Made by a program: the position numbers and the translations under genes. This document shows, piece by piece, positions 6,012 to 7,951 of a stretch of DNA of 10,828 nucleotides. This DNA is from Chloroflexota bacterium (GTDB lineage: Bacteria > Chloroflexota > Limnocylindria > QHBO01). The notes beneath the pieces were generated by a model. That model saw only the letters and a program-made list of their open reading frames with translations. It searched no databases and was not told the origin of the DNA. Numbering within the stretch: the first letter of the stretch is position 1; each line of letters opens with the position of its first letter. The DNA lies in NCBI GenBank assembly GCA_019348395.1, contig JAHWJN010000034.1, positions 1-10,828 on the forward strand, read 5' to 3'.

Positions 6012-7049
6012 TCAGCCGGCCTCGTCGTAGTAGGCCTGGGCTCCCGGACAGACGTCCATGAACTCGACCTCGCCCGCGGTGGCCGCGTCGAGCTCACTGG
6101 CAGCCGGGTGCACGTCGACGAGGTCGTCCTTCTGCTCGAACAGGACCTGGGTGATCTGCCGCTGGAGCTCCTCGTCCATCGACGTGTTGACCACCAGGAC
6201 GTTCGGCACGACCACCGTCGGCACCGCTTCGTCGACGCCGTCGTACGTGTCGGCCGGAATCTCCCGCTCGAGGTAGAACGGACCGTACTCGTCGGCCAGG
6301 TCGCTCGTGTACTCCGCCGTTGGCACCAGCGCCAGCTCCCCGGCCGAGGCCAGGTCGACGAGCGCGCCTGTCGGGAGGCCGCCGGACCAGAATCCGGCGT
6401 CGATCGTCCCGTCGCGCAGGCCGTCGACCGTCTCGTCGACGAGCAGCTGCGAGCGGTCGATGTCGGCATCCGGATCGATGCCCGCCGCCTCGAGGATCCG
6501 AATTGCGATCACCTCAGTGCCGGAACCGGGCGCGCCCAGCGAGACCCGCCGGCCGGCGAGGTCGGCCACGCTCTCGATACCGGAGTCGGGTGTGGTCACG
6601 AGCTGGGTATAGTTGCTGTACAGGATGCCGAGGGTGCAGGCATCGATGGCGTTCCCCTCGAAGTCCGTCCCCCGACCCTCCACCGCGTCGGCTGCCGTGT
6701 CACCGAGCACGAACGCCACGTCGGCGTCGCCGGTGCCGATCAGCAGCATGTTGTCGACCGATGCGCTCGTCTCCTGCGCGGTCGCCTCGACGCCGTCGAG
6801 GTTCTCGCTCAGCTCCTGGGCCAGCCCGCCGCCGAGCGGGAAGTAGACGCCGCCGGTGCCGCCGGTGGCGATGGTCAGCCGGGTGGTCTCGCCGTCACCG
6901 TTGCCGCCGCCATCGGTGGCCGCGCCGTCGGTCGGCGCGTCGGTGGGATCCGTGGCGCCGGTGCCGTCGCCCTCGTCGGCCGGACCGCACGCGGTCAGCG
7001 CGAGGACGAGTGTGAACAGGAAGGCCGGTACTGCGCGTGATGCAGACAT
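6012..7049 (-). CDS. TAXI-family TRAP transporter solute-binding lipoprotein
   Basis: A 345-residue extracytoplasmic solute receptor of the TAXI (TRAP-associated extracytoplasmic immunogenic) family. It has a lipoprotein signal: basic start, hydrophobic run, and lipobox LTAC with the lipid-anchored cysteine at C21, so it should be tethered to the outer face of the cytoplasmic membrane. Residues 23-55 form a Gly/Asp/Thr-rich low-complexity tether. The binding domain starts with LTIATGGTGGVYFPLG (58-73), the hallmark TAXI N-terminal motif, followed by DVAFVLGD (110-117), SLGAPGSGTEV (170-180) and FWSGGLPTGAL (220-230), all typical of the two-lobed fold. It is the first gene of the minus-strand operon, preceded by a good Shine-Dalgarno sequence and the dyad-rich intergenic region. 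Family is secure. The ligand is unknown; glutamate/glutamine is the best-known ligand class in the family. Confidence 0.95.
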   Translation of the reverse strand: MSASRAVPAFLFTLVLALTACGPADEGDGTGATDPTDAPTDGAATDGGGNGDGETTRLTIATGGTGGVYFPLGGGLAQELSENLDGVEATAQETSASVDNMLLIGTGDADVAFVLGDTAADAVEGRGTDFEGNAIDACTLGILYSNYTQLVTTPDSGIESVADLAGRRVSLGAPGSGTEVIAIRILEAAGIDPDADIDRSQLLVDETVDGLRDGTIDAGFWSGGLPTGALVDLASAGELALVPTAEYTSDLADEYGPFYLEREIPADTYDGVDEAVPTVVVPNVLVVNTSMDEELQRQITQVLFEQKDDLVDVHPAASELDAATAGEVEFMDVCPGAQAYYDEAG

Positions 7050-7055
7050 TGCGTG

Positions 7056-7061
7056 CTCCTC
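7056..7061 (-). promoter_or_regulatory. Shine-Dalgarno site for the TAXI lipoprotein
   Basis: Read on the minus strand the sequence is GAGGAG, followed by a 6-nt spacer and the ATG at 7049. This is a near-optimal ribosome-binding site and fixes the start of the first operon gene. Confidence 0.75.
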
Positions 7062-7193
7062 ACTCCAGGCGACGACTCCTCCGCCGGTCGCCGCGATGAC
7101 TCACTCGGGTGGTTGCTCCTGCGAACGATGTTACCGGTCGGTGTCGAGCCGCCGCCTCGGCCCTTGCCTCCAGAAACGTTCTCGGGGAGTTCC

Positions 7194-7219
7194 GGCCGCC
7201 ATCGGCCGATGGTGCGGCC
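7194..7219. repeat. Imperfect 26-bp palindrome in the divergent spacer
   Basis: The outer arms GGCCGC (7194-7199) and GCGGCC (7214-7219) and the inner arms CATCGG (7200-7205) and CCGATG (7206-7211) are reverse complements; only the two bases GT (7212-7213) break the symmetry. The core 7199-7212 is a perfect 14-bp palindrome. It overlaps the first copy of the GCCAG-N4-GCTGGC dyad by three bases. A protein-binding site is more likely than a terminator, since no T-tract follows on either strand. Confidence 0.6.
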
Positions 7220-7405
7220 AGTCCCGCTGGCCACTCGTCGCGCCAGCGCGCGGGAGGATGCCCTGGGCCGTCATTGGCCAGTCTGGCTGGCGCCGTGACG
7301 ACCGAGCCGGCGCTCCGTGGTCGGGGCGCCAGTGTCGCTGGCATCCGGGAGCCGGAGCGGCCTCAGTGGGCCCCGCCCCCCCGTCCAACCGCCAGCGTGG
7401 CTGGC
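7217..7405. repeat. Four copies of the dyad GCCAG-N4-GCTGGC
   Basis: Copies lie at 7217-7231, 7277-7291, 7328-7342 and 7391-7405. Each has the perfect 5-bp inverted arms GCCAG and CTGGC around a 5-bp spacer (TCCCG, TCTGG, TGTCG, CGTGG); the last spacer base is G every time, while the other spacer bases and the flanks vary. Start-to-start distances are 60, 51 and 63 bp. Conserved arms with variable surroundings are what multiple operators for a dimeric regulator look like. Small RNA hairpins or a short dispersed repeat are alternatives. I did not find the same motif elsewhere in the window when scanning by eye. Confidence 0.75.
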
Positions 7406-7470
7406 CCCGCCCTGGCCAACCCTCGCCGGCGGCCGGCGGTGAGATACTCCGTGCCGCTGTACGCACGCAC

Positions 7471-7480
7471 GGGAGAAGGG
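7471..7480 (+). promoter_or_regulatory. Ribosome-binding site of the cupin gene
   Basis: The purine run GGGAGAAGGG lies just before the ATG at 7484. GGAG (7472-7475) has an 8-nt spacer to the start, which supports that ATG as the true start. Confidence 0.6.
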
Positions 7481-7483
7481 TGA

Positions 7484-7951
7484 ATGAGCGGTCGTCGCAC
7501 CGGCTATGTCCTCCAGCCCGGCGAGGGCGAGCGCGTCCGCATGCTCGCGTCCGAGCACCAGGTCCTCGCCGGCAGGCGGACCGATGCGTCGTTCACGCTG
7601 CTCTCGTCGACCATTCCGGCGGGCGGCGGGCCGCCGCCCCACGTTCATGACGACGAGGACGAGCTGTTCTACGTCCTCGAGGGGCGGCTGCGGGTCAGGT
7701 GCGGCGATGATGAATGGGTCGTCGGCGCCGGCGGCTGTGCGTATCTCCCGCGGGGCGTCATCCACCAGCCCCGCGTGGAGGGTGAAGAGCCGGCCCGCGT
7801 GCTGGTCATCACCAGCCGTCCCGGCCTGGAGGACTTCTTCGGGGAGGTGACCGCCGAGGTCGCCGCGTCAGGGCGGCCTCCCAACCTCGAGCTGATGGAC
7901 CGCCTGGGGGCTCCCTACGGCCTGCGGCACTTCCCGCCGGAGACCGGGTGA
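7484..7951 (+). CDS. Single-domain cupin (cupin_2) protein
   Basis: A 155-residue cytoplasmic beta-barrel protein of the small cupin type. Cupin motif 1 is visible as PPHVHDDEDELFYVLEG (51-67), giving metal ligands H53, H55 and E60. Motif 2 is YLPRGVIHQPR (87-97), giving H94, so the four-ligand metal site is complete, although the Asn often ending motif 2 is absent. Such proteins range from quercetinase-like dioxygenases to isomerases and metal-dependent sensors; the sequence does not say which. The C-terminal tail (about 115-155), with a phenylalanine-rich start and GRPPNLELMDRLG, resembles the tail of quercetin dioxygenase-like small cupins. It is transcribed divergently from the TRAP operon across the dyad-rich spacer, so shared control is possible. 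It ends 4 bp from the convergent P-loop gene. Confidence 0.9.
   Translation: MSGRRTGYVLQPGEGERVRMLASEHQVLAGRRTDASFTLLSSTIPAGGGPPPHVHDDEDELFYVLEGRLRVRCGDDEWVVGAGGCAYLPRGVIHQPRVEGEEPARVLVITSRPGLEDFFGEVTAEVAASGRPPNLELMDRLGAPYGLRHFPPETG

Follow-up and report, generated by a model that had tools for sequence, protein, structure and literature searches.

The intergenic DNA between two divergent genes of a Chloroflexota bacterium contains the same short palindrome four times, which raises the question of whether these dyads form an operator for the neighboring genes or belong to something that extends beyond this locus. The window, i.e., the whole stretch of 10,828 nucleotides that was analyzed, is an entire contig of the host genome (1.375 Mb in 211 contigs, 59% complete). 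The features considered are the following:

7217..7405, no strand assigned: whole four-dyad array, flanked by the divergent TAXI and cupin genes
7217..7231, no strand assigned: dyad 1, GCCAG-TCCCG-CTGGC, exact match
7277..7291, no strand assigned: dyad 2, GCCAG-TCTGG-CTGGC, exact match, 60 bp after dyad 1 (start to start, as below)
7297..7300, plus strand: GACG as an outer block of dyad 2, at +13 to +16 relative to the dyad center, compared with the family logo
7328..7342, no strand assigned: dyad 3, GCCAG-TGTCG-CTGGC, exact match, 51 bp after dyad 2
7391..7405, no strand assigned: dyad 4, GCCAG-CGTGG-CTGGC, exact match, 63 bp after dyad 3
6012..7049, minus strand: neighboring TAXI-type solute-binding protein (NMT1_3), context only
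7484..7951, plus strand: neighboring cupin (Cupin_2), context only

The preliminary description had reported the motif GCCAG-N4-GCTGGC as occurring four times, and the window indeed contains exactly four exact copies, starting at 7217, 7277, 7328, and 7391. In the 434-bp intergenic region these four dyads compare with a mean of 0.003 and a maximum of one in 20,000 first-order Markov resamples. When up to two mismatches are allowed, the whole window gives 24 strand matches versus 12.3 expected, so that the signal that stands out is that of the exact copies only. None of the Pfam matches of the ten window proteins (nine matched, one without match) is to a DNA-binding domain, and the cupin has a match to the sensor fold AraC_binding. 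The window has no Rfam match at gathering thresholds, and no match to a sigma-70-like promoter is present in 7040-7490.

The array belongs to a family of intergenic repeats that is dispersed over the host genome and also occurs in a few relatives. A dyad-pair pattern matches 18 places in the host, where the reversed control has no match, and has none in 176 further genomes belonging to the class. The host genome has 36 exact GCCAGN5CTGGC sites, 29 of which lie in arrays, and three of the remaining seven adjoin degenerate copies. Only one of the 43 array dyads is genic, in line with the original expectation that the motif is not equally frequent inside genes. The array had been proposed to be an operator for a dimeric regulator, perhaps sensing the TRAP substrate. 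Its position between divergent genes fits such a local operator, but the same arrays adjoin genes for a phosphoesterase, a P-loop NTPase, a hydroxyacyl-CoA dehydrogenase, MeaB, a 2-hydroxyacid dehydrogenase, and toxins, and the nine neighboring proteins that were scanned are functionally unrelated. Moreover, the motif does not recur at the orthologous TAXI genes, where it had been expected: the 3.9-4.0 kb loci of G002, itself a family-bearing genome (69% identity), and of G003 (65% identity) contain no exact GCCA-N7-TGGC dyad; beyond this comparison of exact dyads, G003 and G006 gave two partial matches, both of them weaker. The local operator was therefore rejected on the basis of the genome-wide spread and the dyad-free TAXI orthologs, and we regard it as very improbable. 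From the original proposal, an array of DNA that binds dimers remains the best reading, whereas its role as operator of the TRAP and cupin genes does not hold. Matches to the window cupin exist in seven of nine genomes of the genus, the best with 37% identity, and since none of them is close, its upstream region is not comparable. In G004 (L299), the aminotransferase, decarboxylase, dehydrogenase, and nitrilase genes of the window are collinear and other genes replace the TRAP/TAXI/cupin block, the TRAP and TAXI proteins being without match in that stretch.

Loci of the family were recruited in two ways, with pair patterns that had gaps of 25-55 or 34-64 and with R1, a sequence-only model built from a 43-unit alignment; this set, from which the first logo was also made, took in mismatched neighbors picked at 51 or 61 bp. 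Under R1, dyad 3 of the window has the highest score in the host genome, and the R1 search of the host gave further arrays on contigs 205, 189, 181, and 37. Among the relatives, most R1 matches fall into two genomes of the same genus, G001 (15) and G002 (24), the units of which have the host-like architecture with the arms shifted to GCCAA...TTGGC. Counted as exact GCCA-N7-TGGC dyads irrespective of their spacing, there are at least 11 arrays with 43 dyads in the host, at least 24 with 71 in G002, at least six with 16 in G001, and at least one with three in G018, together 42 arrays and 133 dyads in the four genomes; these are minimum counts, since the loci examined cover part of each genome. 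Degenerate arrays on contigs 189, 111, and 162 and at C133:439-576 were left out of the 11 host arrays, and one overlapping dyad (2838) of locus L312 was dropped after the gene-context analysis. With an R/Y pair pattern, six of 177 class genomes give matches, namely the host (22), G002 (27), G001 (5), G018 (2), and two others with one match each, which equals the level of the reversed control elsewhere. In a phylum sample of 400 genomes, which took in neither G001 nor G002, 16 genomes match, the host with 22, G018 with two, and fourteen others with 1-2 each, the latter being background because the reversed control matches ten genomes. As the family is missing from most relatives, it cannot be generally essential. 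A contig scan across phyla gave at least 115 stretches, and among the matches listed the largest share belongs to Pseudomonas entomophila COR5. An Acidimicrobiia match (L146) consists of three identical dyads at intervals of 57 bp within apparently coding sequence, and nine viral stretches match the pair pattern, two of which (L208, L212) were inspected and are tight 27-bp tandem repeats. When 4-bp arms were considered in G004, six pairs were found at the center length of the family with no arm repeated, compared with 20 GCCA pairs in loci selected from G002 (50 kb); CGAG/CGAC pairs occur in G004 at center length 3.

The symmetry extends beyond the dyad, which forms the core of a site of ~44 bp. 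The symmetrized host logo consists of the core GCCAGYNNNRCTGGC, GACG at +13 to +16, and GA at +20/+21, with the left side mirrored. The terminal dyads of the G002 arrays have the sequence GATGCCAACCnnGTTGGCCCTGTGACCGnCGAA pointing inwards, so that the two ends are mirror images and form terminal inverted repeats as in MITEs, and outside GATGCC nothing is conserved. Three dyads are present in 21 of the 24 G002 arrays, the commonest intervals being 5 and 8 turns in eight arrays, 5 and 6 in six, and 6 and 8 in four. Using a search pattern that permitted G or A equally at the varying base, the half-site GCCAG was found in 72/86 cases in the host, and GCCAA in 119/142 in G002, 22/32 in G001, and 6/6 in G018. 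The largest host array (L015:7243-7713, contig 160) has nine dyads with spacings of 61, 51, 61, 60, 50, 61, 51, and 61 bp and takes up the intergenic space that separates a P-loop NTPase gene from a phosphoesterase gene.

The spacings between dyads fall into classes of 50-51, 60-63, about 72, and about 82 bp. The 89 spacings of 45-90 bp, a range outside which spacings of 43 and 102 lie, are fitted best by a period of 10.23 bp with a mean cosine of 0.915, which none of 2000 random spacing sets reaches (random maximum 0.367); since the arrays share ancestry, these spacings are not independent and their effective number is below 89. The mean cosine per genome is 0.926 in the host (31 spacings), 0.983 in G001 (10), and 0.919 in G002 (46), and G018 contributes two spacings, too few for phasing. 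As units were chosen at 51 or 61 bp for the R1 set, the spacings of that set are partly circular, and the phasing therefore rests on the exact dyads collected without a spacing rule. As a control, REPs of P. entomophila with the same arms, taken from the contig scan across phyla, are unphased: 56 pairs from 54 loci give -0.02 at 10.2 bp, and their highest value at any period is 0.34 versus a random mean of 0.27.

According to our own codon-usage gene caller, the starts of which are approximate, the 42 arrays lie between tandem (26), convergent (10), or divergent genes (3, one of which, L259, overlaps its gene call), the context of three being undetermined. Hence, like REP/BIME elements, the arrays occur preferentially where the neighboring genes are tandem or convergent, although the numbers are small, and the window array belongs to the rare divergent class. 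Facing 3' ends (47) lie at a median of 36 bp from the arrays, and facing 5' ends (34) at a median of 86 bp. Seven of the 133 dyad centers of the four genomes are within predicted genes, so that the family also has the dispersed, mostly intergenic, and clustered nature of such palindromic repeats. A Gp49-like (DUF891) gene lies 38 bp from the sole array found in G018 (L323:3362-3488), and in G002 a gene for a ParE-type toxin is 618 bp from a pair of near-identical arrays (L263:424-1057). The location after genes would also suit REP-like RNA hairpins at transcript ends, which stabilize mRNA, slow ribosomes, or aid termination. RNA folding is better than that of shuffles in three arrays (z -3.50, -2.79, -3.74), although such scores are of the kind expected of palindrome-rich DNA. 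Selection on RNA hairpins predicts more G.U than A.C at variable pairs in the transcript sense, and G.U indeed leads in the outer blocks (81 versus 58 A.C), but not at the two innermost pairs (22 versus 28). Furthermore, the stems have 5 bp, no match to an intrinsic terminator (GC-rich hairpin, then T run) is present in 7040-7490, and it is hard to see why single-stranded RNA would obey a 10.2-bp spacing rule. The counts at the inner pairs and the phasing thus favor a double-stranded protein target and leave room for a role as RNA, which we consider quite improbable.

Selection on the arms, as it had been suggested from the window alone, is supported by one array at the same junction in G001 and G002. 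The two versions align without indel and are identical at 29/30 arm positions, 16/24 positions of the flank blocks, and 23/59 non-motif linker bases, with 32/40 identities in the last 40 coding bases upstream; the flanking proteins are 90% and 92% identical. As the arms are kept while the linkers drift, at least one array is held by selection. At a second junction common to two relatives the layout of the array has changed, and in another case an array of the host corresponds to a dyad-free gap between the same genes in G001. Within genomes, array copies are 95.6% identical over 136 bp (L263, 507 bp apart) and, in two further inverted pairs, 83% over 177 bp and 79% over 145 bp, from which it follows that arrays are copied as units. 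These whole-array copies, the junction that is empty in G001, the mirror-image G002 ends with no conservation outside GATGCC, and the patchy distribution could also be explained by a MITE-like selfish element, the dyads of which would bind a transposase encoded elsewhere, with the phasing serving only the transposition complex and with no benefit for the host. Since a 10.2-bp length period has been attributed to transpososome assembly in the Paramecium IESs (PMC3464196), this alternative stays viable. However, no target-site duplication was seen by eye in 24 G002 ends, most copies have intact arms but diverged linkers, and one array retains arms as well as spacing despite the drift of its linkers, which makes a purely selfish element unlikely in our view, though still one to be reckoned with. 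The REP-associated tyrosine transposase (PF01797) was found in none of 41 genomes (the control gave a signal in 5/14; host 59% complete), and a REPIN moved by a RAYT was set aside for this reason. In G002 (L308:3730-5046), a gene for a mutator-family (IS256-type) transposase begins 40 bp from a two-dyad array, the second dyad of which also resembles a terminal unit.

Explanations of interspersed palindromes in bacteria have invoked RNA hairpins, protein sites, or selfish DNA. For the arrays described here the best reading is a REP/MITE-like element that acts as double-stranded, same-face putative protein-binding DNA. By a modest balance of probability, they are dispersed intergenic palindromes at whole helical turns, each of which is likely bound by a putative protein dimer, with all dimers aligned on the same face. 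A dimeric DNA-binding protein would read the dyads, and the bound dimers, due to this alignment, would form one nucleoprotein complex or a short loop. The specificity of the protein would differ between species according to the GCCAG and GCCAA half-sites. The arrays would be spread as units by an enzyme and then, as the least certain step, might be retained owing to an action of the complex at gene ends, where it could, for instance, stop read-through polymerase or insulate neighbors. Against this explanation we count that the evidence for selection comes from one array, with a changed layout at the second shared junction, the common ancestry of the arrays behind the 89 spacings, the G.U excess of the outer blocks together with the RNA folds of three arrays, the lack of the family in most relatives, and the location of the window array itself between divergent genes. 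Nevertheless, the helix-locked spacings and the arms that hold while linkers drift point to a double-stranded same-face nucleoprotein complex, and the species-typical arms (GCCAG versus GCCAA) provide a handle for finding the protein via correlated change in close relatives. It is conceivable, but rather doubtful, that the arrays constitute a new class of bacterial chromosomal element. In that case, arrays of two to nine dyads, helix-phased and mirror-symmetric, would be recognized as double-stranded DNA by a dimeric protein that evolves fast and is specific to the species; they would spread as units with no REP-type transposase involved and would then be retained as structural punctuation between genes.

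The nearest known kind is the REP/BIME group, with which location and palindromy agree, whereas stem length, tag, spacing rule, and transposase differ. In the literature compared (PMC3733652, PMC12306157, PMC2817692, PMC3116915), REP/BIME elements are short palindromes, clustered and scattered through intergenic DNA, chiefly where gene pairs are tandem or convergent and near 3' ends (PMC3733652), and the arrays share all of this. REPs are defined by a GTAG-tagged stem of 5-13 bp or a CGTC-tagged stem of 8-9 bp with the tag at one end (PMC3733652). In contrast, the arrays have 5-bp arms around a 5-base center with symmetric outer blocks on both sides, are mirror-symmetric and spaced by whole turns unlike the REPs of P. 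entomophila, and their logos contain no GTAG. A CGTC block close to the palindrome is also typical for the CGTC-tagged REPs, for which no associated transposase is known (PMC3733652), but their tag is one-sided, whereas CGTC/GACG occurs here on both sides, five bases from the arms. REPINs are REP doublets moved by RAYT transposases, and their inverted end units are copied as one piece like those of the arrays (PMC3116915), which, however, mostly have three or more dyads and no PF01797 protein in the genomes searched. The length classes of Paramecium IESs, about 10.2 bp apart, have been read as same-face assembly (PMC3464196), but IESs are eukaryotic, excised, and unique-copy, so that only the geometric principle is in common. 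Among open-licence PMC papers, searched by title and start of the abstract, no paper describing helix-phased palindrome arrays was found. The arrays may be filed as a variant of interspersed palindromic elements that appears new. The GTAG-type REPs at loci L092-L206 of P. entomophila COR5 share the GCCAG/CTGGC arms, apparently by coincidence.
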